Of a stretch of DNA of 40,279 nucleotides, positions 5,826-37,432 are shown piece by piece. The notes beneath the pieces are model-generated. The model had not been told where the DNA came from. It did not search any database and saw nothing but the letters and a program-made list of their open reading frames with translations. The DNA lies in NCBI GenBank assembly GCA_031269685.1, contig JAISYU010000124.1, forward strand, positions 1 to 40,279, in the 5' to 3' direction. Position numbers and translations under genes: made by a program. Every line of letters starts with the position of its first letter. Within the stretch, counting starts at the first letter, position 1. The stretch comes from Dysgonamonadaceae bacterium (lineage in GTDB: Bacteria > Bacteroidota > Bacteroidia > Bacteroidales > Azobacteroidaceae).

Positions 5826-5999
5826 ATCATCTCAACAGGAGATTTACAGGAAAGTATTTTTTGCAATTACTCAATAATTTATAATATTTCGCTGGGATAC
5901 GTTTGCTCTTATGAAAAAACTCAAAGACCTGTGTAGAGCGTAAGTTTTTATCTCTTAAAAACGCTTAGTTCTTATTTTTCCTCTCTTAACTTTTTTTCT

Positions 6000-6007
6000 T
6001 ACCTTTG
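6000..6007 (+). promoter_or_regulatory. -7 box (TAccTTTG) for the LysM gene
   Basis: TAccTTTG lies 21 bp before the ATG at 6029. It overlaps the upstream TTG codon at 6005, which excludes the longer reading as the start. No clear -33 TTTG is seen. Confidence 0.6.
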
Positions 6008-6028
6008 CAGCGCAATAATGCTTTAAAT

Positions 6029-7546: not shown

Positions 7547-7555
7547 CTGACTGAT

Positions 7556-8236: not shown

Positions 8237-8280
8237 GGAAATTCTGCAAGAATGAATTATCTTTTCCGCTGCTATGACGG

Positions 8281-8343
8281 AAAATTTTTCAGCATGCCGG
8301 GAATCTTTTTCAGCATGCTGGCAAGTTTTTCCAGCACGTTCGG
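8281..8343 (-). repeat. Three-unit 21-bp repeat
   Basis: Units start at 8281, 8302 and 8323. Each carries a T-tract of about five and then an (imperfect) palindrome centred on CAGCATGCTG. On the minus strand this gives an A-tract every 21 bp, like the other 21-bp loci in the window, though the unit sequence itself is different. Confidence 0.75.
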
Positions 8344-20642: not shown

Positions 20643-23600
20643 ATGAAGAGTATTATCAAGTTTGCAGTCAATAATCCCGTGACGGTCTCGATGGCTGTGT
20701 TGGCGATTCTGTTGTTAGGAAAAATTTCTTACGACAGGTTAAGTGTTGATCTTATGCCGGAAATGAATAACCCGCGATTGTTTGTCGAATTGACTGCGGG
20801 TGAGCGACCTCCTGGTGAAATTGAGTCGCAGTTTGTAAAAAATATGGAATCTGCTGCGGTTAGGCAAACCGGTGTTACGCAGGTTTCTTCTGTTATTCGT
20901 TCCGGTTCTGCGCGTATTACCGTTGATTATTCCTACGGTAAGAACATGGACGAAGCATTCCTTGATCTTCAAAATGCAATGAATCCTTTTTTGCAGAATG
21001 AAAATCTTGATGAGTTAAAAATAACCCAGCATGATCCGAATAGTGCACCTGTGTTGTTGGTTGGAATGTCTCACATTACGATTAACGATCCTGCGGAATT
21101 GCGTAAGGTTGCGGAAAACTACATTCGCAATGAACTTATCCGTCTTGAAGGTGTTGCGGAGGTAACTATTTCCGGTCATGAAGTTTCAAGTTTGATAATA
21201 AAGACCGATACTTATAAACTTGCTGCCTTTGGGTTGACTATAGATGGTATTGCCTCGAAGATACAGTCTAATAATCAAAGTGTTTCCGGCGGACGGGTTT
21301 CGGAGATGGGCATTCAGTATCTTGTGAAGGGAGCGACTTCATTTGCTTCGGAAAAAGATTTTGAGAATCTTATAGTAGGTTATAAGCCTGTGGAATCTCA
21401 GTCGACTGCTACTCAGGCAACATCTTCTGTTTTTGTCGAAAGTGCTCCGATTTATTTGAGTGAGGTATCTGAGGTACGGTTTGAGAATGATCGACCTGAA
21501 AATATTGTACGTATTAACGGCGAGCGCAGTCTTGGGTTGTCGGTTTACAAGGAGATGCAGTTCAACACTGTAAAAACTGTTGAGGGAGTTGTCCGGCAGT
21601 TAAAATCTATAGAGCAGGCGTTACCCGGGTATCGTTTTCAGGTTATTTCCAACCACGGTACTTTCATAAGGCAGGCTATTGATGAGTTGCAACAGAGTGC
21701 GATTATCGGCATTATTCTTGCTGTGCTTGTCCTTTTCTTTTTCCTTCGTAAATTAGGCACGACACTTATTGTCAGTCTTGCGATTCCGGTTTCCATTATT
21801 GCCACTTTCAATTTAATGTTTTTCGGTGGTTTATCTTTAAATATTATGACGCTTGGCGGACTTGCGCTTGGTGCTGGTATGTTGATAGATAATGCGATAG
21901 TTGTTATTGAAAGTATTTTCCAGAATCGGGAGAGGGGTCTTAGTGTTAATGATTCTGCTATCAATGGCACGTCGGAGGTTTCGGGAGCGGTAATTGCTTC
22001 TACTTTAACTACGATTGTTGTTTTTCTTCCTGTTGTTTATCTTCACGGAGTGATAGGGGAGTTGTTCAAGGATCAGGCATTGACGGTATCCTTTTCATTG
22101 CTTTCCTCTCTTTTTGTGGCTCTTTTTGTGATACCGATGCTTTATAAGCAGATGAATGGTCTTTGGAAGAAATCTGTTTCGGAGTCTTCATTACATGACA
22201 GGGAAATAAAGTCGGTAAAGATACACGGTTACGGTCTTCTTTTGCGTAATCTTTTGAAATATCGTTGGACGGTAGTTAGTTTAGCGGCTTTTCTTGTGGT
22301 ATTTTCCATGTTTTTGGTACCACATATTGGTACGGAGTTCATGCCACGCAATGAAGGGAAAACATTTACGCTTTTGCTTAAGATGCCGGAGGGTACGCGC
22401 TTGGAACGCACGGTTTCGGCTGTAGAGAATCTGTCTAAGTTACTGCCTGCGATTACTTCCGACAGTTTATTGACGGTTTATACTCACGCGGGACCTGGGA
22501 GTGGCATGGAAGACGCTGTTTTTGAAGGGGAAAATACTGCTATCTTGAAGGCGATTCTTTCTTCTGCCTGTCGGAAATCGACCGAGGCGGTTATTGCGCA
22601 ACTTATATCCGCCGCAGGCAATACCGATGGGATGGAAATCACTGTTAAGCAGGACGATCACTCGTTTAACGCTGCACTTGGCACGGAAGGTTCTCCGCTT
22701 GTTGTTGAGATAAAGGGGGAAGATCTTGATAAGATCTCTGAAATTGCGACTGAGGTGAAGGCGTGTGCGATGAATGTCAAGGGCTTGCATAATGTTATTT
22801 CGGCAATAGATGATGGTGCGCCCGAATTGACTATTTCTGTTGACAGGATTGTAGCGGGCATCAACAATCTACCACTTTCGACTGTCATTGAGCAGATAAG
22901 GCAGCAGTTAAGCGGTCATAATGCCGGTCAAATGGAATATCATGGCGAGATGCGCGAGATAACTCTTCGTTTGCCGGATGTTTCGCTTTCAGATCTTAAC
23001 AATATGATAATCAGTTCTGGGGAAAAGACTTTCAGGTTGCAGGAGATTGCGACCGTTACCCATACCAATGCTCCGAAAGAGATTTATCATCGCAACCAGA
23101 GTCGTATTAGCCGTGTTTATGCCGACATTGATGCCGGTTTATCTCTTGATAAGATTGCAGATGATGTACGTATTGCGATGAGGGATATAGACTTACCGTC
23201 TGATTATACGATAACCGTCACCGGAGAGGAGGAATTGCGCAGCGAATCTATGAATGGGCTTTTGTTTGCTTTGTTATTGGCTGTGATACTTGTGTATATG
23301 GTTATGGCATCGCAGTTTGAGTCTCTTTTGCATCCTTTTACGATCCTTTTAACTATTCCTTTTGCGGTAGTTGGCGCGGTATTTTTGTTTTTCATTACCG
23401 GCAAAACCGTTAATATGATGGGAGTTATCGGCATAGTGATGTTAGTTGGCATCGCGGTTAACAATTCGATTCTGCTTGTCGATCGTATAAACCGTTTAAA
23501 GTTGCTTTTTCCTTTGCATGAGGCGATTATCCATGCCGGAGAGGAGCGTATCCGCCCCATATTAATGACGACGTTAACGACAATCCTGGCACTTTTACCT

Positions 23601-23750
23601 TTAACATTCAGTATTGGCGAAGGATCTTCATTACGTTCGCCGATGGCAATCGCAGTAGTTGGGGGACTTGTAACATCAACCGTCATGAGTTTGGTTGTGA
23701 TTCCCTGTGTTTATTCCTTGATGGAGAGGGGGAAACGTTCTGCAAATTAA
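20643..23750 (+). CDS. RND family efflux transporter permease (AcrB-like)
   Basis: This is a 1035-aa inner-membrane proton-driven pump. Architecture: TM1 (about residues 8-27, VSMAVLAILLLGKISYDRL), a large porter domain, TM2-6 (from about 345), a second porter domain, and TM8-12 (from about 870). The TM4 block reads LGAGMLIDNAIVVIES, with one Asp and an Asn where AcrB has two Asp, a common form in HAE1-type pumps outside AcrB. The TM10 block reads VGIAVNNSILLVD. There is no membrane-fusion or outer-membrane partner beside it, so it must share partners or act alone. The third codon positions are rich in T and G, unlike the flanking FkbM patch. Substrate not predictable. Confidence 0.92.
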   Translation: MKSIIKFAVNNPVTVSMAVLAILLLGKISYDRLSVDLMPEMNNPRLFVELTAGERPPGEIESQFVKNMESAAVRQTGVTQVSSVIRSGSARITVDYSYGKNMDEAFLDLQNAMNPFLQNENLDELKITQHDPNSAPVLLVGMSHITINDPAELRKVAENYIRNELIRLEGVAEVTISGHEVSSLIIKTDTYKLAAFGLTIDGIASKIQSNNQSVSGGRVSEMGIQYLVKGATSFASEKDFENLIVGYKPVESQSTATQATSSVFVESAPIYLSEVSEVRFENDRPENIVRINGERSLGLSVYKEMQFNTVKTVEGVVRQLKSIEQALPGYRFQVISNHGTFIRQAIDELQQSAIIGIILAVLVLFFFLRKLGTTLIVSLAIPVSIIATFNLMFFGGLSLNIMTLGGLALGAGMLIDNAIVVIESIFQNRERGLSVNDSAINGTSEVSGAVIASTLTTIVVFLPVVYLHGVIGELFKDQALTVSFSLLSSLFVALFVIPMLYKQMNGLWKKSVSESSLHDREIKSVKIHGYGLLLRNLLKYRWTVVSLAAFLVVFSMFLVPHIGTEFMPRNEGKTFTLLLKMPEGTRLERTVSAVENLSKLLPAITSDSLLTVYTHAGPGSGMEDAVFEGENTAILKAILSSACRKSTEAVIAQLISAAGNTDGMEITVKQDDHSFNAALGTEGSPLVVEIKGEDLDKISEIATEVKACAMNVKGLHNVISAIDDGAPELTISVDRIVAGINNLPLSTVIEQIRQQLSGHNAGQMEYHGEMREITLRLPDVSLSDLNNMIISSGEKTFRLQEIATVTHTNAPKEIYHRNQSRISRVYADIDAGLSLDKIADDVRIAMRDIDLPSDYTITVTGEEELRSESMNGLLFALLLAVILVYMVMASQFESLLHPFTILLTIPFAVVGAVFLFFITGKTVNMMGVIGIVMLVGIAVNNSILLVDRINRLKLLFPLHEAIIHAGEERIRPILMTTLTTILALLPLTFSIGEGSSLRSPMAIAVVGGLVTSTVMSLVVIPCVYSLMERGKRSAN

Positions 23751-23795
23751 AACCCGTTTATTTTTTCGGAAAACGATATGTAGTTCTGCAATGGA

Positions 23796-23872
23796 TTTAA
23801 GAACTTTAAAGACGTTAAGGACATTAAGGACTTTAAAGTCTTTAAGGGCTTTATTCTTTTAATTTTGCCCGA
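23796..23872 (-). repeat. 9-bp repeat run, inverted copy
   Basis: About six 9-bp units of the CTTTAAAGN / CCTTAATGT type, read best on the minus strand. On that strand a CAAAAT (23862-23867) is followed 20 nt later by CCTTAAAGAC, exactly the spacing of the other composite copies, but the C-rich junction is lost. Units contain the palindromes CTTTAAAG and GACTTTAAAGTC. Confidence 0.7.
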
Positions 23873-23945
23873 ATAAATCATAAAATTCGTTAATTATATC
23901 ATTGACAAATCTGAATAAAAAATATTGTGTTTTTTATTCAAATAA

Positions 23946-23977
23946 TTTGTCGTTTAAAAAATTTATTTATACCTTTG
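23946..23977 (+). promoter_or_regulatory. Bacteroidota promoter of the accessory patch
   Basis: TTTG at 23946-23949 and TAccTTTG at 23970-23977 are separated by 20 bp. The ATG of the small heptad ORF at 23985 is only 7 bp after the -7 box, so a transcript would be nearly leaderless, or translation begins further on. Confidence 0.75.
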
Positions 23978-23984
23978 CAGCGTC

Positions 23985-24179
23985 ATGATTGAAGGCAGAT
24001 ACACATATCATTACGCTAAATACTTGCAAGATACAGTAATATACAATATAAATGCTGTAAAATACAAGATAAACAAAGCGAAATACAATCAAAATGCAGT
24101 GGAATACATTGTAGAATTATCCGGCTATAATTATTTTGAAGTCGACTGCAATTTATACGTTTACAAATTTAAATTATAA
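23985..24179 (+). CDS. Small heptad-repeat ORF of unknown function
   Basis: This 64-codon ORF directly follows a strong promoter. From 24018 to 24122 it consists of five degenerate 21-bp units, each encoding a heptad (for example KYLQDTV, IYNINAV, KYKINKA, KYNQNAV), rich in Tyr, Asn and Lys. No family is recognised. It could be a real small protein, or a repeat tract that happens to be open. The close match of the 21-bp period with the other repeat loci argues for shared origin. Confidence 0.35.
   Translation: MIEGRYTYHYAKYLQDTVIYNINAVKYKINKAKYNQNAVEYIVELSGYNYFEVDCNLYVYKFKL
24018..24122 (+). repeat. Degenerate 21-bp repeat inside a small ORF
   Basis: Five in-register units start at 24018, 24039, 24060, 24081 and 24102. 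Most open with (A/G)AATAC, and the fourth contains CAAAATGCAGTG, close to the CAAAATNACACTG core found at 31.8-32.1 kb. Confidence 0.6.
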
Positions 24180-24200
24180 ATATTTTAACACATTTATACT

Positions 24201-24290
24201 ATGGCTTCAAAAATATACTGGATGCTAAGAAATCATAAACTTTTTTATGATCAAGCAACAAAAACAACATCCTATTTGTTATTAACATAA
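24201..24290 (+). CDS. Possible 29-residue peptide
   Basis: A short ORF (starts MASKIYWMLRNHKLFYDQ) sits between the heptad ORF and the FN3-like gene. No family is recognised and its coding status is uncertain. It may be the remnant N-terminus of a larger protein. Confidence 0.2.
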   Translation: MASKIYWMLRNHKLFYDQATKTTSYLLLT

Positions 24291-24302
24291 AATCGTAACA
24301 GA

Positions 24303-24893
24303 ATGGGACTCGGAGAATCTACACCTGGCGGAGACTGGTTTGATAACATCTATATCCCGGCATACAATGAATACAAACTCGCCTTTAATAGTTGGGAAAA
24401 TGAGGCAACAAGAACCAAATCTATTTCAACTACATTCTACGATGCTGAAAAAGAGTTTAAACCTTTTTATAGAGAACTTTACATCGGATTCCTTAAAGGA
24501 AACCCATTAGTAACAGACACCGACCTCGTCGTAATGGAGTTGCCCCAAAGACGTGAAAAAACCAGTATGAAGTCACCGGTGGCGAAAGATTTTCCATTCT
24601 TGAAGGTCATTACAAACACTATCCGGTACATTATAATAGAATTTAGCGGCTCGGAAATAGCTCGTGCAAAACCAGAAGGACAAAGCAGCATGGAATTTGT
24701 ATATATTGTTGCCAAAGAACAACCGACGGAGATAACACATCTGACTAATACTTGCTTCTGTACACATACTCCGCTCAATATCGAATTTTTAGAGTCAGAT
24801 CGCGGAAAAATAATCTACTTCTCCGCAAGATGGGTTAACACACGAGGGGAAAAGGGTCCATGGTCGCCAATTTATTCGCCAATTATTCCATAA
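24303..24893 (+). CDS. Hypothetical protein with C-terminal FN3-like domain
   Basis: This 196-aa protein has no signal peptide or membrane segment. Residues 1-80 are likely helical (DNIYIPAYNEYKLAFNSWENEATRTKSISTTFYDAEKEFKPFYREL). Residues from about 100 to the end form a beta-sandwich-like domain with the motifs SEIARAKPEG and WVNTRGEKGPWSPIYSPIIP, which recur in a family of uncharacterised Bacteroidota proteins as I remember it. No enzymatic residues stand out. It lies 25 bp upstream of the FkbM gene and shares its A-rich codon use. Function unknown. Confidence 0.7.
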   Translation: MGLGESTPGGDWFDNIYIPAYNEYKLAFNSWENEATRTKSISTTFYDAEKEFKPFYRELYIGFLKGNPLVTDTDLVVMELPQRREKTSMKSPVAKDFPFLKVITNTIRYIIIEFSGSEIARAKPEGQSSMEFVYIVAKEQPTEITHLTNTCFCTHTPLNIEFLESDRGKIIYFSARWVNTRGEKGPWSPIYSPIIP

Positions 24894-24918
24894 TAAACAT
24901 TAAACAAATAAACTAAAG

Positions 24919-25860
24919 ATGAACAAAACAAAGAAAATTAAACGTATCATCAAAAAATTCACTCCAGATTTTATTATGTCTATCTGGCGAAAATACCAAG
25001 AGATAAAAGAAAAAAAAGAGTGGAAAAAATGGGCTATACCATTGGAAAATCAAGTCAAAAATTATCTGGAAAATATTCCGAAAGAGTCAATGACAGACGA
25101 AATACAGGAAATACTTGACTACCTGCGGAAACCACATTCATATACACATATACCATATTCCTACAAAGAAAACTACAATCCTGACAATGTGAAGGTTTAC
25201 AAGGACAATGAACGGGGAATGCTCTACGTAATATATGATGAAAAACGACTGTATTTCAAAAAAGACTGGCATGAGAAATGGATACGGAAATATTATAACT
25301 ACCTTATGATAGAACAGGACGAAAAATCCCCGCACAGGTACGAAACATCTGACTTTTGTGTCAACCAAGGAGATATTGTGGTCGACGCAGGAGCCGCAGA
25401 GGGAAACTTCGCACTGTCTGTGATAGAAAAAGTTAAAAAGATTTACCTCTTTGAAGTGGAAGAGGAGTGGATAGATGTGCTGAGGGTGACCTTCGAGCCT
25501 TGGAAGGATAAAGTAGTGATAATCAAGAAATACATATCCGATAATAATGAAAATAATTGCGTAACACTGGATTCTATTTTTGAAAATGAGGAAATAAATT
25601 TCATAAAAGCGGACATCGAAGGCGCGGAAATTCAACTCCTTAACGGCGCAAAGTCAATCATGGCAAGAGAAATGCCACCGAAAATCATCCTATGCACATA
25701 CCATAACCAAAATGATGCGGAAATTATTGACAATATGCTCACCAAACAGGGATTCAATACGGAATTTTCAAAAGGATTCATGATCTATCTCTATGAAACC
25801 CTTAACCCACCTTACCTTAGAAGAGGACTAATCAGAGCATGGAAAAATAAAAAGCGCTGA
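24919..25860 (+). CDS. FkbM family methyltransferase
   Basis: This is a 313-aa SAM-dependent methyltransferase of the FkbM type. A basic, helical N-terminal 140 residues precede the catalytic domain: motif I VVDAGAAEGNFALSV (about residues 155-169), LFEVEEEW, and the family block FIKADIEGAEIQLLNGA (about 230-246), then PKIILCTYHNQNDAEII. Such enzymes often methylate sugars or lipids in surface glycoconjugates. No glycosyltransferases are adjacent, but polysaccharide genes occur 7 kb downstream. The gene is A-rich compared with both neighbours, suggesting transfer. Its stop codon lies in the stem of the following terminator. Confidence 0.88.
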   Translation: MNKTKKIKRIIKKFTPDFIMSIWRKYQEIKEKKEWKKWAIPLENQVKNYLENIPKESMTDEIQEILDYLRKPHSYTHIPYSYKENYNPDNVKVYKDNERGMLYVIYDEKRLYFKKDWHEKWIRKYYNYLMIEQDEKSPHRYETSDFCVNQGDIVVDAGAAEGNFALSVIEKVKKIYLFEVEEEWIDVLRVTFEPWKDKVVIIKKYISDNNENNCVTLDSIFENEEINFIKADIEGAEIQLLNGAKSIMAREMPPKIILCTYHNQNDAEIIDNMLTKQGFNTEFSKGFMIYLYETLNPPYLRRGLIRAWKNKKR

Positions 25861-28059: not shown

Positions 28060-28248
28060 AGATAAATTTTTGATATACGAAAAGATTATAGCATATTTCT
28101 TCAATTTTAATATATTATTTTAATAAATACGCTGTTTTATCATCAATATTTACCTTAGAAAATACGTTATGAGCCTTGGAAATTGCTTTTAATCACCGTG
28201 CACTTCAAAGAATTTACAGCATTTTATTAAGATACAGATAAAATTTTG

Positions 28249-28256
28249 TACTTTTG
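28249..28256 (+). promoter_or_regulatory. -7 box (TActTTTG) for nrnA-guaD
   Basis: TACTTTTG lies 22 bp before the ATG at 28279 and overlaps the longer in-frame reading from 28246, which it excludes. Confidence 0.6.
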
Positions 28257-28278
28257 TTGCTCACAGTTTTCAAATATA

Positions 28279-29313
28279 ATGCTTACAAAAATAATTACAG
28301 AGGATAACATCCATAAAGCAAAGAAATTAATCAATCGCAGTCATAAAATAGTGATAGTAGTTCATACGTATCCTGATGGTGATGCTTTGGGTTCGTCGCT
28401 TGGTCTGTGGCATTTTCTTAGCGAACTCGGCAAAAGTGTGAATGTGATAGTACCGGACGGTTATCCCTCGTATTACAAGTGGATGCCGGGGTCAGAGGGG
28501 ATTATTGTTGCCGACCGCCAGCATAAGTACGCTGGGGAATTGATTTCTTCTGCCGATCTCATCTTTTGCCTTGACTTCAACGAACTGCGTCGCACGGCGA
28601 TCCTCGAACCATTTCTCAGGGACTCGAAGGCGAAGAAAATCATGATTGATCATCATCCTGATCCTGTTAAGTTTTGCGATGTAATCATTTCACATCCAGA
28701 GATGTCATCTACTGCCGAGTTAGTTTTCCGGTTTATTTGTCGGATGGGCATGTTTGAGTACGTCAATTTATTTTGTGCCGAATGTATTTACACGGGAATG
28801 ATGACCGACACCGGCGCGTTTACTTTCAACTCCAACCGTCCCGACATATTTTTCATTATCAGCGAGTTATTGAAGACGGGTATTGACAGGGACGCCATTT
28901 ATTCGCGCATTTACAACCGGCACAGTGTAGATCGCGTTCGCTTACAAGGCTACGTATTGTATAATAAGATGAAGATTTACGAGAAATATCACACTTCATT
29001 GATCGCGCTTTCGCATGAAGAGCATCAACGGTTTAACATACAGAGGGGAGATACGGAAGGCTTTGTTAATATCCCGCTTTCCATGGGTGATATTATTTTC
29101 TCAGCCTTCATTCGTGAGGACAAAGACGTTGTAAAAATTTCTCTTCGGTCGAAGGATTCGTTCCCCTGCAATCGATTTGCGGCTGAAGTTTACGGAGGTG
29201 GCGGTCACTTGAATGCTTCTGGCGGTGAGTTTTGCGGAACTTTGGACGAAGCCATCCAAAAATTTGAGGAGAACTTGGAAAATTACAAAGAATTGCTTGT
29301 ATTAAATCATTAA
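28279..29313 (+). CDS. nrnA: DHH family phosphoesterase (NrnA-like oligoribonuclease / pAp phosphatase)
   Basis: This 344-aa cytosolic enzyme belongs to the DHH/DHHA1 family whose NrnA members degrade short RNA oligonucleotides and dephosphorylate pAp. The manganese-binding motifs are HTYPDGDALGSS (residues ~28-39), FCLDFN (third motif, Asp), IDHHP (the DHH triad) and MMTDTGAFTFNSN. The C-terminal DHHA1 domain ends in the substrate-binding GGGGHLNASGG. The start MLTKIITEDN at 28279 agrees with the family N-terminus and the promoter. The guaD gene begins 3 bp after its stop, so the two form an operon. An RNA-turnover role matches the divergent rng cluster. Confidence 0.9.
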   Translation: MLTKIITEDNIHKAKKLINRSHKIVIVVHTYPDGDALGSSLGLWHFLSELGKSVNVIVPDGYPSYYKWMPGSEGIIVADRQHKYAGELISSADLIFCLDFNELRRTAILEPFLRDSKAKKIMIDHHPDPVKFCDVIISHPEMSSTAELVFRFICRMGMFEYVNLFCAECIYTGMMTDTGAFTFNSNRPDIFFIISELLKTGIDRDAIYSRIYNRHSVDRVRLQGYVLYNKMKIYEKYHTSLIALSHEEHQRFNIQRGDTEGFVNIPLSMGDIIFSAFIREDKDVVKISLRSKDSFPCNRFAAEVYGGGGHLNASGGEFCGTLDEAIQKFEENLENYKELLVLNH

Positions 29314-29316
29314 CTC

Positions 29317-29787
29317 ATGACAGATGAGATGTACATTAAGGAAGCCATTCGCATAGCGGAGGAAAATGTAATTAACGTCGGCGGGGGTCCTTTTGGCGCC
29401 TTGATTGTTAAGGGCGACATGATTATATCTGAGGCGGTTAACACTGTAACTTTGACAAACGACCCGACTGCTCATGCGGAAGTGAACGCTATACGCGCAG
29501 CATGTAAGGCATTGAACACGTTTGACTTGTCAGGATCTGTGTTATATTCGAGTTGTGAGCCTTGTCCCATGTGTCTTTCGGCTATTTACTGGGCTCATAT
29601 AGACAAAATATATTACGCTGCTTCTCGTTATGACGCGCAAGATGCCGGCTTTGACGATTCTTTCATTTACGAGGAGTTAAATTTGCCGATTTCCGAGCGT
29701 CATATTAAGATCATCCGGTTGTTATCTGCTGATGGCAGGCTTCCTTTTGATCAATGGAAAAAAAATATAACGAAAGTTCCTTATTAA
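29317..29787 (+). CDS. guaD: Guanine deaminase-type nucleoside/base deaminase
   Basis: This 156-aa enzyme is of the cytidine deaminase fold. The zinc and proton-shuttle residues appear in TAHAEVNAIR (HAE) and SSCEPCPMCLSAIYWA (PCxxC). The sequence CEPCPMCLSAIYWAHIDKIYYA and the C-terminal region (AGFDDSFIYEELNLP, ... W) fit the B. subtilis GuaD type, which deaminates guanine to xanthine, better than tRNA adenosine deaminase TadA. It is cotranscribed with nrnA (3-bp gap), suggesting a purine salvage or turnover unit. Confidence 0.88.
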   Translation: MTDEMYIKEAIRIAEENVINVGGGPFGALIVKGDMIISEAVNTVTLTNDPTAHAEVNAIRAACKALNTFDLSGSVLYSSCEPCPMCLSAIYWAHIDKIYYAASRYDAQDAGFDDSFIYEELNLPISERHIKIIRLLSADGRLPFDQWKKNITKVPY

Positions 29788-29793
29788 ACGTTA

Positions 29794-29824
29794 TTTGCTT
29801 TTTCGGAAAAACATTGTACTTTTG
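29794..29824 (+). promoter_or_regulatory. Bacteroidota promoter for the three-gene helical protein cluster
   Basis: TTTG at 29794-29797 and TActTTTG at 29817-29824 are separated by 19 bp. The ATG at 29857 follows 32 bp later. Confidence 0.75.
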
Positions 29825-29856
29825 TCTTTTAAACAAATATGTAATAATAAACGGCT

Positions 29857-30345
29857 ATGAATTTAAGAAAAAAGGGTCTGGACGCTTTGGGTCACGTTGC
29901 GAAGTTGTTAAATTACGATGACTTGTCGAATAAAAGTTTTTACAACATGCGTTATTACCTTGAGAATTCGCAGGCTTACAGTAAGGACTTGGTCTCCGGC
30001 AGGAAGAATGTGTTTGATTCGCCGAGTGAGTTTATTGCTGTTCGTAAAACTTTTCGTTATTATCTTGGCAAGATGGAATTAAATGTCGGTAATTTACAAA
30101 CTGTGCTCAATGAGGCTCAGGATTATGTTGACAGCGAGCGATGCGCTGTCGAAAATTCGCAAGGTTTTATCGACGACTTGCGTACTGTGATCGATAACAC
30201 GACGAAGAACATCACTTTCATCCTTCAATATACTGATTTGGTTCAACAGGCGGCAGCCGAGCTTGATAAGATTGACGAAGCGGTGCAAAAGCACCTTCGC
30301 GGGGAAAATGATGAGACGGAAGACGAAGTTAAGGACATTAATTGA
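29857..30345 (+). CDS. Helical protein of unknown function, cluster member 1
   Basis: This 162-aa protein has no signal peptide or membrane segment. Residues 1-75 contain FYNMRYYLENSQAYSKDLVSG and FRYYLGKMELNV. Residues 75-145 are predicted to form long amphipathic helices with heptad periodicity (NEAQDYVDSERCAVENSQGF, IDDLRTVIDNTTKNITFILQYTDLVQQ), suggesting a coiled coil. The C-terminus is acidic. It shares the NLQ..L.EAQ.YV pattern with the third gene of the cluster, so they may be distant paralogues. It follows a strong promoter, and the second gene is 15 bp downstream. I recognise no family; structural or scaffold role is possible. Confidence 0.7.
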   Translation: MNLRKKGLDALGHVAKLLNYDDLSNKSFYNMRYYLENSQAYSKDLVSGRKNVFDSPSEFIAVRKTFRYYLGKMELNVGNLQTVLNEAQDYVDSERCAVENSQGFIDDLRTVIDNTTKNITFILQYTDLVQQAAAELDKIDEAVQKHLRGENDETEDEVKDIN

Positions 30346-30360
30346 TAAAAGCCAACGCTT

Positions 30361-31029
30361 ATGGATTTGAAAAATGACAATATTGGGACTGAAAATAATA
30401 CGAAGGAGTCCAAGATTAACATCTACAATTGGGAATATACTGTTGAGAACGATCAATATTACATCAGTGACGAGATAATTTCGACCCAACCCGGGATATA
30501 TTTCACCAAAACCTTGCAATATTTCTTCAAGGAGTTGGATGATTCCTGCTCTTATTTGGGCGATTCGTGTGAGAACTTGCGGTATTACGTTCTGCACATA
30601 CCCGATTTGACTGATCCTCCGCTTGGTTCCGGCAACAGGGTATTGATGTTCCTCGACAGTATACGGGAAAATATTGACATGGTATTAAATTGTGCGGCAG
30701 TATCGCAGTATTACCTTGACGATCCGGCGAATTATGCCATTAATTCGGCACATTCTATCGAGATCTTACAGAAGGCGATTAAGGGTGCGTACATACAGGT
30801 TGACAGTGTTCGGGGTTATATCGAATTGATGCAATTTATTGCTAATTTGTTTCAAATTTGCATTGACCGCAACAGACCTTACCCTGATGAGCGTTCATAT
30901 ACGATCTGTTACGACCCTGCGCCCACATTTCGTTTGTTTCATGACGATAAATATCAGACAAATTTTGTTGTTTTCGCCTATAATGAGCCACGAACGTTAT
31001 GTGATGCGCAGCGAACGTTACGCGATTAG
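30361..31029 (+). CDS. Helical protein of unknown function, cluster member 2
   Basis: This 222-aa protein has no signal peptide. An N-terminal acidic linker leads to IYNWEYTVENDQYYISDEIIS and then to a helical core (FFKELDDSCSYLGDSCENLRYYVLHIPDL; SAHSIEILQKAIKGAYIQVDSVRGYIELMQFIANLFQICID). The tail TFRLFHDDKYQTNFVVFAYNE resembles the tail of member 3 (EISFFKHPKYQLEYVVHMK), which supports paralogy. It is 15 bp after member 1. The final residues (EPRTLCDAQRTLRD) come from a short near-duplicated stretch, CGAACGTTA at 30991 and 31013. Function unknown. Confidence 0.7.
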   Translation: MDLKNDNIGTENNTKESKINIYNWEYTVENDQYYISDEIISTQPGIYFTKTLQYFFKELDDSCSYLGDSCENLRYYVLHIPDLTDPPLGSGNRVLMFLDSIRENIDMVLNCAAVSQYYLDDPANYAINSAHSIEILQKAIKGAYIQVDSVRGYIELMQFIANLFQICIDRNRPYPDERSYTICYDPAPTFRLFHDDKYQTNFVVFAYNEPRTLCDAQRTLRD

Positions 31030-31074
31030 CCGTTAATTTTCATAAATAAAAAGAAATTGACAAAGAAAAATAAT

Positions 31075-31716
31075 ATGACAAAACTGGAAAAGAGGTTACG
31101 GATGAAAGATTACATTGCTCGGATTGGGGAATACTCTGAGACGGCGCGACTTTGTATCAAGCAGATAAACGATTACATTGTGAGTTCGAAATTTTACGAT
31201 GCCGAGACGAAAAGTTTCAATAAGGTATTCTACATCCCCGCCGAGGAGTTTGGAGAATCCCTTGATTTGATTTATCATTATTGCGACGTGTTGCGTTCTT
31301 TTACAAAAAAAGTGCAAGTCTGCACCGAAGAGGCTCAGGAATACGTCAACAATCTTCAAAATGACACCGAAGACCTTCAGAATTACACTAACAACCTTCA
31401 AAATGACACCGAAGACCTTCAGAATTACACTGAAAGCCTGCAAGATTACACTGAAGACCTTCTAAATGACACTGAAGACCTTATCGAGGACATTATCGAC
31501 CTTCAGGATGTCATCAATTCCTCGCAGGAAAACATCAAAGGGATTACGGGTTTCTGCAATCACATGCAAGAGGCTATCAACACGTTACGGCATAATAACC
31601 GGCCGCCATCTTCCGACACTAAGCACAGCGTATTTCACGAGATAAGTTTCTTTAAGCACCCCAAATACCAGTTAGAATATGTCGTGCACATGAAGACAAT
31701 AGCCAAAGCCGAGTAA
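31075..31716 (+). CDS. Coiled-coil protein with in-frame 21-bp repeats, cluster member 3
   Basis: This 213-aa protein has no signal peptide. The N-terminal 85 residues (LEKRLRMKDYIARIGEYSET ... YHYCDVLRSFTKKV) are helical. Residues ~88-145 are heptads of the type LQNDTED / LQNYTEN / LQDYTED, expected to form a coiled coil. The DNA for these (31357-31482) is a 21-bp tandem repeat whose core is nearly the same as the non-coding repeats 300 bp downstream. The C-terminus (RHNNRPPSSDTKHSVFHEIS FFKHPKYQLEYVV) resembles that of member 2. Start at ATG 31075 is preferred to TTG 31057. Function unknown; 45 bp separate it from member 2. Confidence 0.7.
   Translation: MTKLEKRLRMKDYIARIGEYSETARLCIKQINDYIVSSKFYDAETKSFNKVFYIPAEEFGESLDLIYHYCDVLRSFTKKVQVCTEEAQEYVNNLQNDTEDLQNYTNNLQNDTEDLQNYTESLQDYTEDLLNDTEDLIEDIIDLQDVINSSQENIKGITGFCNHMQEAINTLRHNNRPPSSDTKHSVFHEISFFKHPKYQLEYVVHMKTIAKAE
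31357..31482 (+). repeat. In-frame 21-bp repeat in cluster member 3
   Basis: Six units start at 31357, 31378, 31399, 31420, 31441 and 31462, alternating CAAAATGACACC and CAGAATTACACT cores followed by GAAGACCTT. The first 42 bp are repeated almost exactly at 31399, which points to a recent duplication. Confidence 0.9.
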
Positions 31717-31722
31717 TAAAAT

Positions 31723-31750
31723 AGTGAAGAGTGAAGAGTGAAGAGTGAAG
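31723..31750 (+). repeat. 7-bp tandem repeat AGTGAAG x4
   Basis: Four perfect AGTGAAG copies are followed by a degenerate AATTAAG. They lie 7 bp after the stop codon of cluster member 3. Confidence 0.9.
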
Positions 31751-31776
31751 AATTAAGGGTTTACACCTACAAGTGG

Positions 31777-31881
31777 CAAAATTACATGACAGTATTACAA
31801 AATTACACTGCCAAGTGGCACAATTACGCCGATAACCGGCAAAATTATACGACAGTGTCACAAAATTACACTGCCCCCCTC
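31777..31881 (+). repeat. Degenerate 21-bp units before 9-mers, copy B
   Basis: Five units start at 31777, 31798, 31819, 31840 and 31861, each with a CAAAATTA-like core (one CACAATTA). The last unit runs through CAAAATTACACTGCC into a C-rich junction. Confidence 0.85.
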
Positions 31882-31985
31882 CTTAAAGACCTTAAAATCC
31901 TTAAAGACTTTAATGTCCTTAAAGTCCTTAAAGCCTTTAAAGTCCTTAATCTCTTTAACGCCTTTAAAGCCCTTAATGACTTTTC
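31882..31985 (+). repeat. 9-bp repeat run, copy B
   Basis: About eleven degenerate 9-bp units such as CTTAAAGAC, CTTTAATGT, CCTTAAAGT and CTTTAAAGC. The CCTTAAAG that opens the run is 20 nt after the CAAAAT of the preceding 21-mer. Confidence 0.85.
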
Positions 31986-32007
31986 CGAAAATAACCCGAT
32001 AGCATTG

Positions 32008-32070
32008 CGAAATTTCGCCGCATCGCCGCAAAACCACACCGCCGCGTCTCAAAATGACACTGCCCTCCTC
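32008..32070 (+). repeat. Degenerate 21-bp units before 9-mers, copy C
   Basis: Three units start at 32008 (CGAAAT), 32029 (CAAAAC) and 32050 (CAAAAT). The last reads CAAAATGACACTGCCC and passes into the 9-mer run with the same junction as copy B. Confidence 0.8.
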
Positions 32071-32115
32071 CTTAAAGACCTTAAAGCCTTTAAAGCCCTT
32101 AATGTCTTTAAAAGA
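32071..32115 (+). repeat. 9-bp repeat run, copy C
   Basis: About five 9-bp units (CTTAAAGAC, CTTAAAGCC, TTTAAAGCC, CTTAATGTC) end in TTTAAAAGAAATTACCC, which resembles the endings of the other 9-mer runs. Two further 21-mer remnants follow at 32133 and 32154. Confidence 0.8.
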
Positions 32116-32238
32116 AATTACCCGACAGTGTCACAAATTTACGCCGAAACCGGCAAACTTTCTCTGTCACGGGGAATGACTTACAACCTCAATCTTCGCC
32201 TTTACATTGCCTGGATGCGGTCACTCGCTGTCACTCGG

Positions 32239-32469
32239 CAAACTTACACTGTTAACTGGCAAACTTACGCTGTTAACTCGCAAACTTACGCTGTTAACTG
32301 GCAAACTTACACTGTTAACTGGCAAACTTACGCTGTTAACTGGCAAACTTACGCTGTTAACTCGCAAACTTACGCTGTTAACTCGCAAACTTACGCTGTT
32401 AACTCACAAACTTACGCTGTTAACTCGCAAACTTACGCTGTTAACTCGCAAACTTACGCTGTTAACTCG
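32239..32469 (+). repeat. 21-bp tandem array, eleven units (CAAACTTACGCTGTTAAC type)
   Basis: Eleven units in perfect register from 32239 to 32469. Each is CAAACTTAC(G/A)CTGTTAAC plus TSG or TCA, with almost no variation, so expansion is recent. The GTTAAC palindrome recurs in every unit. Confidence 0.97.
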
Positions 32470-32608
32470 CAAATTTAGACCGACGACTCGCAAACTTAGA
32501 CCGACGATGAGCAAACTTAGAGCGACGACTAGCAAACTTAGAGCGACAACTAGCAAACTTAGAGCGACGATGAGCAAACTTAGAGCGACAACTCGCAAAC
32601 TTAGACCG
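32470..32608 (+). repeat. 21-bp tandem array, second unit type (CAAACTTAGAGCGAC)
   Basis: Six full units and a fragment continue the register of the preceding array without a break, but the second half of the unit changes to AGAGCGACRACTMG or AGACCGACGATGAG. TTAG puts a stop in the frame that was open upstream. Confidence 0.95.
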
Positions 32609-32637
32609 TTTTTTAAAAAAATTACACCAAATATTAT

Positions 32638-34077
32638 ATGGAAAATACAACATTGAAGCAAAAAACTGCAAAAGGGTTGTTTTGGGGCGCTGCAAGCAAC
32701 TTAATTGTACAGACAGTCGGGCTAATCTACGGTATTATCCTCGCAAGATCGCTCACAGCGGAAGATTATGGCATCGTCGCCTTGATAACTGTATTCACAG
32801 CGATGGCAGTAACGCTTGCCAACTGCGGATTTTCCGTCGCCTTGATCAACAAAAACGACGTAACCTCAAAGGATTACAATGCAGCCTTCTGGTTTGCGAT
32901 CATGATGAGCGTAATTTTGTATGCAATCGCGTTTATTTCGGCTCCAGCCATAGCAAATTTCTATAACGTCCCGCAATTAAACGCCTTAACGAAGGTATAT
33001 TGCTTGACATTCATCTTTTCCGGCGCCTCACTCGTCTCAAATACAATTATACTCAAGCAAATAAAGGTCAAATTGGTCGCAATCATAGAGATAATCTCGC
33101 TAACAATAGCCTGTTTCGTCGGAATTTACCTCATCATCGACGGACATCGCAACTCCTGGACGATAATTATACCGATGCTCGTCCAAGTCGCCGCCTCATC
33201 GGTGCTAAAAATCATCGCCGCCAAGTGGAAACCGGCTATGGACTTTGATCTTTCGCCTCTCAAGCCGATGATTTCGTTCAGCGTCAAGATAGTTTTAACA
33301 AGCATCTTCTCAAATATATACGCATACATCCTGCCTTTGCTCTTGGGGAAGTTTTATGACATCAAAGACGTTGGAAATTACAATCAAGGGCAGAAATGGT
33401 CAACCATGGGCTTCACGGTTATAAGTACCATGATTGGATATGTAACTCAACCCGTGCTCGCTCAGATCGGCGACTCGAAAGAAAGACAAATCAACGCCTT
33501 AAGAAAGTTGATACGCTTCGGGGCTTTCACTTCATTCCCTTTAATGCTCGGTTTTGCCTTTGCGGGTGAAGAATTTATCTTGCTATCTATAGGTGAGAAG
33601 TGGCTTCCTGCCGTCCCATTCCTGCAAATTTTCTGTGCCGGCAACGCCTTTATGTTCCTTCTCCCGCTATTTTCGAACATGATCTTTGCACAAGGCAAAT
33701 CAGGCGTCCACATGAAGGCTACAATCTTGACGGGTGTAATCCAAATCGCCTCTGTTGCCGCTATGTACCCGCTCGGTATAATCCCCATGGTGGCGGCTTA
33801 CACAATAATGTCGGTCGCCGGCTTAATAATCTGGCATTATTACGTCAACAGATTGGTCAATTTACCGTTACGGGCGGTTCTAAACGACATCATCCCCTAT
33901 CTTGCCGTCACAGTCTGCTGCATCGCCGTCGCATGGCTGCTAACTAAGAACATGACCAATGTTTATTTACTATTCTTCTCGAAAATTTTAATCACAGGAG
34001 TTTTATATATCTTTGCACTCAAAATATTCAAGTCCGTAATCTTCAAAGAAAGTATGGAATTCTTAATAAAAAAATAA
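32638..34077 (+). CDS. Wzx-type polysaccharide flippase (MOP superfamily)
   Basis: This 479-aa integral membrane protein has about 12-14 predicted membrane segments and belongs to the polysaccharide transporter family that flips lipid-linked oligosaccharides across the inner membrane. The N-terminus (KQKTAKGLFWGAASNLIVQTVGLIYGIILARSLTAEDYGIVALI) and internal YNQGQKWSTM and FLQIFCAGNAFMFLLPL are typical of the WzxC/lipopolysaccharide-exporter group. It is followed after 6 bp by a UDP-sugar dehydrogenase, so the two form a surface polysaccharide unit. No glycosyltransferases are adjacent. Codons favour C and A in third position. A tandem repeat array lies 29 bp upstream of the ATG. Confidence 0.9.
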   Translation: MENTTLKQKTAKGLFWGAASNLIVQTVGLIYGIILARSLTAEDYGIVALITVFTAMAVTLANCGFSVALINKNDVTSKDYNAAFWFAIMMSVILYAIAFISAPAIANFYNVPQLNALTKVYCLTFIFSGASLVSNTIILKQIKVKLVAIIEIISLTIACFVGIYLIIDGHRNSWTIIIPMLVQVAASSVLKIIAAKWKPAMDFDLSPLKPMISFSVKIVLTSIFSNIYAYILPLLLGKFYDIKDVGNYNQGQKWSTMGFTVISTMIGYVTQPVLAQIGDSKERQINALRKLIRFGAFTSFPLMLGFAFAGEEFILLSIGEKWLPAVPFLQIFCAGNAFMFLLPLFSNMIFAQGKSGVHMKATILTGVIQIASVAAMYPLGIIPMVAAYTIMSVAGLIIWHYYVNRLVNLPLRAVLNDIIPYLAVTVCCIAVAWLLTKNMTNVYLLFFSKILITGVLYIFALKIFKSVIFKESMEFLIKK

Positions 34078-34083
34078 AACATC

Positions 34084-35358
34084 ATGGACAATTCCAAAGT
34101 ATGCATCGTAGGTCTCGGTTACGTCGGGCTACCTCTCGCAATGCTCTTCGCTTCTCACTACAAAACCTTCGGTTATGACACCAACATCCGGCGAGTAAAG
34201 GCAATAATGAGCGGAATCGACGAAACAGGGCAGGTAGATAACAAAATACTCAAGCAAAATATAAAAAATGGTTTTAGATGTTCCTCCAACGCCCTTAAAA
34301 TACAGCCAAGCGACGTCTACATCATCGCCGTACCGACGCCTGTCGACACCGCCAACAGACCGGATTTAACCCCACTCAAAAAAGCCTCCGAAACAGTCGG
34401 GCGAATATTAAAACCAGGCAACACAGTAATATACGAATCCACCGTATATCCGGGTCTTACCGAAGATATTTGCCTTCCAATCATCGAAAAATATTCCAAC
34501 CTCAAACGAGATAAAGATTTCTTCGCCGGATATAGCCCCGAACGCGTTAATCCCGGCGACAAAGTCCATACTCTCGAGAACACAGTCAAGATAACTTCCG
34601 GCGCAACCCCCGAAGCCGCAGACTTCATCGACCAACTATACAACTCAGTCCTCTCTTCCGGCACGCACCGCGCATCTTCAATCAAAGTCGCCGAAGCCGC
34701 CAAAATCATAGAGAACGCTCAACGCGACGTCAACATCGCTTTCATGAACGAAGCCGCCAAAATATTCAACGCACTCAATATAGATACGCACGACATCATA
34801 AACGCTTCCGCTACAAAATGGAACTTTATCAATATGAAGCCCGGACTTGTAGGTGGACACTGTATCGGTGTCGATCCCTACTACCTTATCGAACAAGCCA
34901 AAGCGTACGGTATAGCCCCCAGGATCATGACTACCGCAAGAAACCTCAATAATAGCATGGGCGAGTACGTTGCCCATCGTGTAATCCGTCTCCTTAACCT
35001 CAAAGGCTGCAAAGTAAACAACGCACGGATACTAATTCTCGGTTTCACATTCAAAGAAAACTGCGCAGACAGCCGTAATACAAAAGTTATCGACATAATA
35101 AATGTCCTAAGCGAATATACTTCCAACATCGACGTATGCGATCCCGTCATCAACCGCCAGGAAACGATCTCCGAATACAAAATAAACCTGATCAACTCTC
35201 AGCCCGACAAAATAGAAGAGCATTATGACGCCATCATCCATTGCGTCAGCCACGATGCCTTCCAAAATATAAACTTCCGCCGGTTACTAAATCCTAACGG
35301 AATCATATATGACGTCAAAGGCTCGCTAAATAGAGATATGGTCGAGGAAAGGTTATAA
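34084..35358 (+). CDS. Nucleotide-sugar dehydrogenase (VipA/TviB/WbpA type)
   Basis: This is an NAD-dependent UDP-HexNAc or UDP-glucose 6-dehydrogenase of 424 aa, making uronic acid precursors for surface polysaccharide. The Rossmann motif is VCIVGLGYVGLPLAMLFA (residues ~5-22), with VPTPVDTANRPDL and YESTVYPGLTED. The catalytic Cys is in LVGGHCIGVDPYYL. The C-terminal domain contains ILGFTFKENCADSRNTKVIDI. The sequence fits the VipA/TviB (UDP-GlcNAc or UDP-GalNAc) group better than UDP-glucose dehydrogenases. It is cotranscribed with the flippase. Its last 6 bp overlap the convergent aminotransferase gene. Confidence 0.92.
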   Translation: MDNSKVCIVGLGYVGLPLAMLFASHYKTFGYDTNIRRVKAIMSGIDETGQVDNKILKQNIKNGFRCSSNALKIQPSDVYIIAVPTPVDTANRPDLTPLKKASETVGRILKPGNTVIYESTVYPGLTEDICLPIIEKYSNLKRDKDFFAGYSPERVNPGDKVHTLENTVKITSGATPEAADFIDQLYNSVLSSGTHRASSIKVAEAAKIIENAQRDVNIAFMNEAAKIFNALNIDTHDIINASATKWNFINMKPGLVGGHCIGVDPYYLIEQAKAYGIAPRIMTTARNLNNSMGEYVAHRVIRLLNLKGCKVNNARILILGFTFKENCADSRNTKVIDIINVLSEYTSNIDVCDPVINRQETISEYKINLINSQPDKIEEHYDAIIHCVSHDAFQNINFRRLLNPNGIIYDVKGSLNRDMVEERL

Positions 35359-36534
35359 AGCGTCTCCGGCGATTCCTGCAAGTCTTATCCTCTCTATTGC
35401 CTCCTTTAATCTATCCTCACAGCAACAAAGGGATATGCGTACGTATTGCCCGCCATTGCTGCCGAAGATTATGCCGGGAGTGATGAAGACACGGGCGCTG
35501 CTGAGGATTTTGTCGGACAATTCAACACTGTCGCCGTAATTGACGGGTATGCGTCCCCAAAGAAACATGCCGGATTGAGCAGTATCAAACCTGCATCCGA
35601 GAAATCGCATGATCTCTTCCGCTAACAGGCGGCGGCGACCGTAAATTTGATTCATGGAACGGTACCATACTTCGGAGGCTTTCAAGGCTTCGGCGGCGGC
35701 AAGCATAACAGGACGGAATTGACCGCTGTCGATATTGCTTTTTACTTTCAATATCCATTGCACAAACTGTTCGTTGGAGGCAAGCATCGCTACGCGCCAG
35801 CCGGGCATGTTTTGTGCTTTGCTCAGTGAATTCATTTCAATAGAGATGTCTTTTGCACCGTCGATCTCAAGGATACTGAGAGGGTGGTCGTTGAGGATAA
35901 AACCGTATGGATTGTCGTGGCAGATAACGATGCCGTGACGGTGTCCAAAGTCGACGAGCCTTTGAAAGAGTTCTTTAGTCGCAGGTGCACCGGAAGGCAT
36001 GTTGGGATAATTAACCCACATCATTTTGACACCGGTCAGGTCCATTTGCTCAAGTGCATTGAAGTCGGGCTGCCAACGGTTCTCTTCTTTCAGATCGTAT
36101 GGAATGATGCGAGCCTCCACAAGCCGGCTGACTGAAGTATAGGTCGGATAACCCGGGTTGGGAGTGAGTACGCCGTCGCCCTGGTTGAGGAAAGCAAGAG
36201 AAGTGTGCAGGATACCTTCCTTTGATCCGATAAGAGGCTGGATTTCAGTGTCGGGATTAAGTTGGACGCGATACCAGCGACGATACCAGTCGGCAAAGGC
36301 TCTACGTAGTTCGGGGATGCCGGTGTATGGCTGGTATCCGTGTGTGTCTGCCTGCCTTGCCGAACGGCAAAGGGTTTCGATGGCTGTTTCCGAAGGCGGC
36401 ATATCGGGGCTTCCGACGCCAAGGTTGATGACATCCATCCCTTTTGCGTTCATCTCCGCGATTTGTTTAAGCTTGCGGGAGAAATAGTATTCGGTGACCG
36501 ATTGTAGCCGGTTTGCGGGTTTAATCATTTCCAT
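35353..36534 (-). CDS. PLP-dependent class I/II aminotransferase
   Basis: This 393-aa enzyme is of PLP fold type I. The lysine that binds PLP is in MNSLSKAQNMPGWRVAM, and other fold-type I blocks are INLGVGSPDMPP, LTPNPGYPTY, VNYPNMPSGAP and ICHDNPYGF. It overlaps pheA by 10 bp, so in context it probably transaminates aromatic keto acids (phenylpyruvate to phenylalanine). Sequence similarity alone would also allow an aspartate or LL-diaminopimelate aminotransferase. It is convergent with the sugar dehydrogenase gene. Confidence 0.88.
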   Translation of the reverse strand: MEMIKPANRLQSVTEYYFSRKLKQIAEMNAKGMDVINLGVGSPDMPPSETAIETLCRSARQADTHGYQPYTGIPELRRAFADWYRRWYRVQLNPDTEIQPLIGSKEGILHTSLAFLNQGDGVLTPNPGYPTYTSVSRLVEARIIPYDLKEENRWQPDFNALEQMDLTGVKMMWVNYPNMPSGAPATKELFQRLVDFGHRHGIVICHDNPYGFILNDHPLSILEIDGAKDISIEMNSLSKAQNMPGWRVAMLASNEQFVQWILKVKSNIDSGQFRPVMLAAAEALKASEVWYRSMNQIYGRRRLLAEEIMRFLGCRFDTAQSGMFLWGRIPVNYGDSVELSDKILSSARVFITPGIIFGSNGGQYVRISLCCCEDRLKEAIERIRLAGIAGDAL

Positions 36535-37364
36535 TCCTTGTATTCGCCAAGTATCTTAAAGTCTTTTGTTAACGGTCGCGCCGCATCAAGTCCCTGCTTG
36601 TATTTGAGGATGTTTGAGAATGTCAGGTCTACATAAAAGAGATATTCCCATTCCCGTCCAATGATTGGCAGCGATTGTATTTTAGTCAGGTTAATGTCGT
36701 AGAAATGGAATATCGTCAATACTTTCGACAGGCTACCTTCGGTGTGAGGCAAGTTGAATACGAGTGATGATTTGTTGATTTCCCGTTCGTCTACGATTTC
36801 GTTAGCCATCCACCGGTTTACAAGGACCAGGAAACGGGTGAAGTTACGCTTGTTGGTCTCAATACCTTCGTCAAGTATTTGCAATCCGTAGAGTTCGGCT
36901 GCATAACGGCTGCAAATGGCGGCATGCCCCTTGAGGCGGTTCTCTGCGATGCGCCGCGCACTGGATGCCGTATCGTCACTTTCCACTACTTTCACTCCGT
37001 GCAGGTTGTCAATGTATTCGCCGCACTGCATCAAGGCTATCGGATGGGAATTGACCTCTGTTACCGTTTCAAGAGTCTCGTCGGGTAAAGCCGCTATGCT
37101 GTGCGTGATGTGAATCTTTTCCTCCCCTACAACGACAAGATCGCTCTCGCGGATAAGTTCGTGATTCTGCAGCAGACTGCCGGCAATGGTGTTCTCTATT
37201 GCCATGATCCCTGTCACTTTCGGGTCGCGCTTTACTTCTGCTATCACTCCTCGAAAATTGTCGCACGGCATTATCTCTATCTCTTCTCCCTTACTGAGGA
37301 AGAATTTTCGCGCCGCCATCTCATGATATGAACCCGCGATTCCCTGTATTGCTACTGTTTTCAT
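36525..37364 (-). CDS. pheA: Prephenate dehydratase
   Basis: This 279-aa enzyme makes phenylpyruvate from prephenate for phenylalanine synthesis. The N-terminal periplasmic-binding-like domain has IQGIAGSYHEMAARKFF, ENTIAGSLLQNHELI and the catalytic-loop motif NFTRFLVL (near residues 173-180). A C-terminal ACT domain (LPHTEGSLSKVLTIFHFYDINLTKIQSLPI) should give feedback control by phenylalanine. No chorismate mutase domain is fused. The start MKTVAIQGIAG at 37364 is preferred to the longer reading from 37412. It is the first gene of pheA-aminotransferase. Confidence 0.95.
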   Translation of the reverse strand: MKTVAIQGIAGSYHEMAARKFFLSKGEEIEIMPCDNFRGVIAEVKRDPKVTGIMAIENTIAGSLLQNHELIRESDLVVVGEEKIHITHSIAALPDETLETVTEVNSHPIALMQCGEYIDNLHGVKVVESDDTASSARRIAENRLKGHAAICSRYAAELYGLQILDEGIETNKRNFTRFLVLVNRWMANEIVDEREINKSSLVFNLPHTEGSLSKVLTIFHFYDINLTKIQSLPIIGREWEYLFYVDLTFSNILKYKQGLDAARPLTKDFKILGEYKEWK

Positions 37365-37398
37365 TATTTCTAAGCAAATGTTTGAAGTTTTTACCGGA

Positions 37399-37432
37399 AA
37401 GAAAGCGACCACCTTTCGACAGCCGCTTTCTT
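37399..37432 (-). terminator. Probable terminator of galM-MFS transcription
   Basis: AAGAAAGCG (37399-37407) and CGCTTTCTT (37424-37432) form a 9-bp stem with a 16-nt loop. On the minus strand it lies just after the MFS stop codon and is followed by a weak T-rich tail (TTCTTTCC). Confidence 0.55.

Follow-up and report, generated by a model that had tools for sequence, protein, structure and literature searches.

Silent codon choice is usually explained by composition, translation or local structure. A rhythm laid over a sequence is known from the PATCs of C. elegans, ~10-bp A/T clusters that are mainly intronic and phase-coherent over long stretches. The bacterial pattern described here shares with them a long phase-coherent rhythm on top of coding content, but its period is 21 or 23 bp, it employs all four letters in a domain-specific manner and it occupies synonymous sites; the ~10-bp A/T spacing was not found. 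Concerted evolution, or cryptic simplicity by slippage, makes units at a fixed distance alike. The known cases act within repeats or at short range only, whereas here silent sites are affected kilobases into conserved genes. The arrays themselves are like minisatellites (VNTRs), with tandem 21-bp units, higher-order 42/63 repeats and mostly intergenic positions. Ordinary arrays, however, do not phase synonymous sites several kilobases away, while here the flanks bear the letters of the array in register.

Prokaryotic genomes have a 10-11 bp periodicity, linked to DNA curvature and the helix and thought to be related to chromosome structure (PMC4060949). The present rhythm is likewise genome-wide, but has an exact integer period, is phase-locked over 5-9 kb and has letters that match local arrays. 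In RIP of Neurospora, partial homology at fixed steps is sensed over hundreds of bp and is promoted by adjacent perfect homology (PMC4858203). Both phenomena have fixed-step homology along DNA that is acted upon. RIP makes C-to-T changes in repeats, whereas here every letter is imposed and the sequences grow more alike; its C-to-T signature is absent, different columns being pushed towards G, A, T or C. Our search for literature on 21-bp periodicity, synonymous rhythm or tandem repeats in this group returned nothing relevant, most subscription papers being outside its coverage.

A register shared by coding and non-coding DNA

The window, that is, the whole stretch of 40,279 nucleotides analyzed, holds a cluster of three genes (members 1-3, or M1-M3) amid the features listed below. 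Periodicity is given as z21, a normalized G statistic with codon phase removed (conditional), which is not exactly normal and whose meaning rests on empirical nulls. We searched Pfam with members 1-3 and two further frames; the other gene names were assigned by eye from translations.

28246..37412, unstranded: register domain with an exact 21-bp phase-locked pattern, consensus ~TTGCAAAATTACACCGACAAC, defined by weight matrices and a sliding map
29857..30345, + strand: cluster member 1 (162 aa), z21 10.1, with a paralogue on contig C28 (55% identity)
30361..31029, + strand: cluster member 2 (222 aa), z21 14.4
31057..31716, + strand: cluster member 3 (up to 219 aa; start TTG 31057 or ATG 31075), a predicted helical protein with heptads, z21 20.0
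31354..31500, + strand: coding 21-bp units (heptads LQNDTED / LQNYTEx) inside member 3
31774..31878, + strand: five non-coding units CAAAATTAC..., in the register of the heptads
31880-31976 and 32070-32112, unstranded: CTTAAAGnC 9-bp arrays between 21-bp units
32005..32151, + strand: more degenerate non-coding units in the heptad register, interrupted by a 9-bp array
32226..32610, + strand: non-coding 21-bp array of ~18 copies (CAAACTTACGCTGTTAACTCG, then CAAACTTAGAGCGACGACTAG)
32638..34077, + strand: flippase gene, the strongest synonymous imprint of the domain (z21 24.6), reading G A T C C A C at the third positions of 7 codons
34084..35358, + strand: UDP-sugar dehydrogenase (ugd-like) gene with the phase and letters of the flippase, z21 12.6
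35353..36534, - strand: aminotransferase (aat), in the + strand register of the domain, weaker

The first-pass annotation had noticed that one repeat core is coding in member 3 and non-coding just downstream, with the same 21-bp period, and both observations are borne out. The heptads at 31354-31500 read LQNDTED, LQNYTNN, LQNDTED, LQNYTES, LQDYTED, LLNDTED and LIEDIID, and their coding units show a 42-bp higher-order repeat. Downstream, the core CAAAATTA lies in the non-coding units at 31777, 31798, 31840 and 31861, the unit at 31819 being CACAATTACGCC, and CAAAATGACACTGCC is found at 32050, slightly beyond the interval 31357-31881 annotated at first. The whole genome (2,234,136 bp) has 10 matches to CARAATKACACY, 7 of them inside these 700 bp, compared with 5 for the reversed control pattern; the concentration at the member 3 locus is real and not due to chance. 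Coding and non-coding cores share one absolute register (31777-31357 = 20x21; 32050-31357 = 33x21; 32239-31357 = 42x21). The 21-bp units contain no stops, and for this reason an open frame of 246 codons (31738-32478), in the frame of member 3, spans the non-coding region; it is probably not a gene. The CTTAAAGnC 9-bp arrays adjoin 21-bp arrays repeatedly, in the window (23796-23853 and the two positions listed) and at L035:6964, L042:4550 and L048:9022.

The same register extends far beyond the repeats. Two weight matrices were used, one trained only on the flippase and ugd genes and the other only on the non-coding DNA 31774-32235. With either of them, phase 0 comes out on top of the 21 phases in all remaining segments of 28.2-36.5 kb, so that 12/12 segments have one phase. 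For pheA (to 37.4 kb) phase 0 is recovered with the flippase+ugd matrix only, and genes outside the domain show no phase-0 preference with either. The domain thereby spans the DHH and tad genes, M1-M3, the non-coding DNA, flippase, ugd, the - strand aat and, weakly, the - strand pheA; the first base of its consensus falls where p mod 21 = 1. A matrix of the non-coding units has + strand matches in the single class p mod 21 = 4 across 29-33 kb, including single matches inside members 1 and 2 and the flippase, with a lone low-scoring exception at 32154. If 29.8-33.0 kb is written in rows of 21, M1-M3, the spacers and the non-coding array form one column pattern, approximately TTG CAA AAT TAC ACC GAC AAC. 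In the sliding map the signal is strongest at the array 32226-32610 and just to its right, and declines both ways. With near certainty, coding heptads and non-coding units alike belong to a single pattern at the DNA level, a ~9-kb register of exactly 21 bp centered on the non-coding array. This pattern is indifferent to gene borders, gene strand and codon meaning. As a separate observation, all seven + strand genes of 28246-35358 start in one frame (start = 1 mod 3; chance ~1 in 729).

The initial annotation was right to treat the coding and non-coding copies as one thing; neither origin that it offered stands as a full account. One was that a coiled-coil gene seeded the intergenic repeats. 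AQEYVNN-like heptads do exist in repeat-free paralogues, and the coding units may have arisen when such a native heptad was duplicated in tandem. Yet register and letters also occupy heptad-free genes on both sides, the pattern runs through other gene families on both strands, other domains have no such gene, and similar arrays adjoin the heptad-free paralogue of member 3 on contig C108, all of which makes seeding by the gene very unlikely. The other was the in-frame insertion of a mobile minisatellite into member 3, an idea to which arrays of similar units elsewhere, for example on C108, lend something. We consider it more improbable still: the heptads have no insert borders, register and letters run on through the entire gene and its neighbors, members 1-3 follow the pattern throughout, and the conserved neighbor genes carry it at synonymous sites only.

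Synonymous sites and the cluster proteins

Three further regions of the window carry the signal.

2..5040, unstranded: second register domain, with an array at 2-136, the M16 peptidase gene at 332-3148 (z21 24.7) and a GH57 gene at 3173-4483 (6.7), fading by ~5 kb
5986..8336, unstranded: third domain, with the LysM gene at 6005-7546 (z21 13.0) and a short array at 8285-8336, in other letters
20643..25860, unstranded: fourth region, with the RND pump gene (z21 10.1) and a gene at 24919-25860 (5.8), in other letters

Once codon phase is removed, only period 21 (and 42, 63) stands out; periods 15, 18 and 24-33 give no signal comparable to 21 and its multiples. The best period is 21.00, and the signal is roughly halved at 20.99 and at 21.01. 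In cysS, murA, galM and fucP z21 is ~0, as are the values at other periods. The columns affected in conserved genes are third codon positions, and they are enriched for G, A, T and C; at two-fold pyrimidine sites the C/T counts are 25/0 at one column and 2/36 at another. Shuffling of synonymous codons within the gene abolishes the signal (from 24.7 to 0.20 +/- 0.76 for M16), and the pattern is absent from 22 M16 orthologues in the genus (z21 -2.4 to 2.1). Sites that match the consensus do not group into tracts; sites behave independently of one another, with a plateau of 67% matches.

In M1-M3 all three codon positions carry a strong pattern, a large part of which persists when synonymous codons are shuffled. 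The best period of member 3 is still 21 after removal of the heptads from the analysis, and its paralogue on C108 has no heptads. Orthologues of members 1 and 3 were not detectable in 40 other species of the genus, and no Pfam family scored above its cut-off in members 1-3. Differences between member 1 and its C28 paralogue are distributed 26/24/50% over the codon positions; their preponderance at third positions argues that these are real proteins and that the member 1 protein is under purifying selection. The AlphaFold model of member 3, of low confidence (mean pLDDT 62.7, pTM 0.34), predicts one long helix, 52-169, through the heptads. Conserved genes take the pattern at synonymous sites only, while the weakly constrained, lineage-restricted M1-M3 take it at all codon positions and hence read as heptad-rich, predicted helical proteins; the M1-M3 proteins themselves are moulded by the DNA pattern. 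The heptads are a by-product of this pattern in loosely constrained genes, plus a local 42-bp duplication. Amino-acid heptads as the cause are ruled out by the synonymous permutation and by domains of period 23 (below). A heptad coiled-coil gene as the sole cause was also rejected, as permutation removes the periodicity in conserved genes and partly keeps it in M1-M3.

The array-derived look of M1-M3 and the array-like non-coding spacers could suggest that these regions were formerly kilobase arrays, which genes then displaced or entered, so that only periodic remnants are left. As regards only the origin of M1-M3 this is a fair account. M16 and other conserved genes have orthologues and show the pattern at synonymous sites alone, which array remnants cannot yield, and as a general explanation we give ancient giant arrays very little weight.

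Domains across the genome and among species

The genome sample comprises 331 kb with arrays masked (~15% of the genome; one assembly per species) and was partly picked for hits, contigs C1-C12 being unselected. At period 21, 34% of its 1-kb windows exceed z 3, versus 0.5-1.2% at periods 15, 18, 24, 27, 30 and 33. Approximately a quarter of the C1-C12 windows are above z 3, and therefore the phenomenon is not a product of picking hit-bearing contigs. Among 219 genes, 35% are above z 3 and 10% above z 10. The fragmented genome assembly and a statistic that is not exactly normal might raise the suspicion of an artefact. Its probability is close to negligible in view of the disparity between period 21 and the others, of the synonymous permutations, orthologues and negative species, which are all clean, and of the independent presence of the pattern in two other genome assemblies.

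About a third of the sampled genome lies in domains of 5-8 kb, whose letters are domain-specific and usually those of their own array, in phase. Agreement of strong windows in phase and letters is 82% at 1 kb and 44% at 3 kb, and falls to chance past ~7 kb. The excess of third-position identity within a domain is flat across lags of 1-70 units, which indicates one letter set per domain; local copying from the neighbor 21 bp away is disfavored by the same flat excess. Flanks match their own array best at an in-phase shift in 26 of 48 cases (2.3 expected), and in 18 of the 24 where flank z21 > 8. Domain letters are of several types: the third letters G A T C C A C recur in several domains, and the other types do not match this profile on either strand. 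Such variation between domains disfavors a single universal binding motif. Neighboring imprinted genes share their third-position class in 23/46 pairs, compared with 23/70 unimprinted pairs.

Tandem copies run head-to-tail, like those of ordinary minisatellites, at 2-136, 13483-13788, 31348-31492 and 32226-32610. Similarity stops at the array border only at non-imprinting arrays such as 13483-13788; elsewhere the flanks follow the letters and phase of the array. This clean array (14.6 copies of ACGTACGGGTGTCCGTACAAA, 94%) has flanks without imprint and is perhaps young. Several further arrays likewise leave their flanks without imprint, and the flanks of 22/23-bp arrays have little or none (marginal at one 22-bp array). 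Three domains in coding DNA have an exact period of 23 (L041:5251-8900; L047:1051-3650; L049:9976-12000), with no 23-bp array visible inside them. Their existence excludes a codon or coiled-coil/heptad cause, and disfavors helix phasing as the sole reason.

Some additional features were seen in passing. On contig C108 (L042:5550-6872) a gene for a TolC-like outer-membrane protein, which contains a 42-bp repeat in frame (GELPNDNVTLQKPS), lies in an imprinted domain. A 64-codon ORF at 23986-24178 of the window, with tyrosine at about every seventh residue, lies downstream of the promoter-like TACCTTTG and is possibly another array-moulded peptide. Microsatellites of 12-39 copies, unusual for a bacterium, lie at or near many contig ends, where they probably break assembly.

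Window 40256-40279; L033:13458-13523; L040:122-199; L041:22-65; L043:58-111; L044:16297-16338: (AC)n/(GT)n microsatellites

Among 46 genomes, which include four other genera of the family, widespread signal is present in 3 only: the source genome (G000), G021 (20% of windows > 3) and G028 (8%). G017 has one array flank with signal, and several surveyed species with a few 21-bp arrays lack the pattern. Of the strongly periodic flanks in G021 and G028, 10/16 give an in-phase match to the array beside them. In a murA tree the three carriers form one clade (support 100/99) with long branches, which is compatible with one origin, in a fast-evolving lineage. By analogy with Dysgonamonadaceae metagenome assemblies, the habitat is presumably the termite gut. 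The + strand of the source genome is richer in G+T to the left of arrays and in A+C to the right (p = 0.0006); the switch persists on + genes alone (p = 0.0015), so that gene direction is not its whole cause. It is a trend only in G021 (p = 0.06) and is absent in G028. Such a switch is as expected from 3' single strands exposed on both sides of a recurrent break, and other bidirectional processes could also produce it.

Homogenization and filament as possible origins of the pattern

The pattern is DNA-level, phase-locked, array-linked and limited by protein constraint. As to how it was made, our leading proposal, still a tentative one, is register-preserving homogenization through repeated misaligned repair at arrays. 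DNA at an array would repeatedly suffer breaks or gaps, with resection across a few kb; repair would then proceed with the array misaligned by whole units, and bases n x 21 bp apart would be brought opposite one another and converted to a common letter, with selection purging changes that alter conserved proteins. Unconstrained DNA would end as a clean tandem array and conserved genes with a hidden synonymous rhythm, M1-M3 standing between. Homogenization would account for the domain-specific letters, both periods, the fast-evolving clade, the decay with distance and the strand switch, which fits 3' single strands exposed on both sides. In its support stand the flanks that match the nearby array in letters and phase (26/48; 10/16 in G021/G028), the one phase across 12/12 segments, the absence of the synonymous-site signal from the 22 M16 orthologues and the sharing of third-position class by imprinted neighbors. 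The carriers are moreover a fast-evolving clade, in which weak selection could hardly be sustained at thousands of silent sites. Several observations fit homogenization poorly: consensus matches do not cluster in tracts, the dominant present array unit has GTT at one column where the flanks have A/C, arrays of less than 0.4 kb reach 4-5 kb, the array 13483-13788 and several other arrays have no imprint, the 23-bp domains have no visible array, and the strand switch is a mere trend in one carrier and absent in another. The MutS gene is intact, which also counts against it, and loss of MutS as a cause was discarded on that ground. We know of no enzyme shown to perform such homogenization.

Selection provides the other account of some weight, which we regard as possible but rather doubtful. 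A putative cooperative DNA-binding protein or nucleoprotein filament would step every 21 bp, nucleate at arrays and spread over several kb; synonymous sites would have evolved to fit it, and phase-breaking indels would be selected against. The exact integer register held over 9 kb, intergenic DNA included, is in line with a filament, as are the unequal column strengths, reminiscent of a binding matrix, the independent sites with their 67% plateau, the recurrence of G A T C C A C across several domains and the equivalence of 21 bp to two helical turns. But a period of 23 is not two turns, the many domains whose other letters match their own array would require many proteins, and only weak selection is expected at thousands of silent sites in a fast-evolving clade. 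We therefore favor homogenization over a phased filament, leaving room for an explanation not listed here.

Whichever is correct, it is likely that this bacterial clade possesses a hitherto undescribed system for reading or rewriting DNA in fixed steps of 21 bp (sometimes 23 bp), in domains of 5-9 kb around arrays, imposing a domain-specific sequence on the silent sites of about a third of genes and moulding new orphan proteins out of this very pattern. DNA as much as several kilobases distant sets an exact long-range rhythm in about a third of the sampled genes. If the process is mutational, it would amount to a novel type of genome-wide drive, by which array letters are copied into genes and new proteins can arise. 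If it is selected, it would be a second code at synonymous sites, read by a DNA-organizing machine not yet known. Either way, methods based on codon bias and dN/dS would mislead in this clade.
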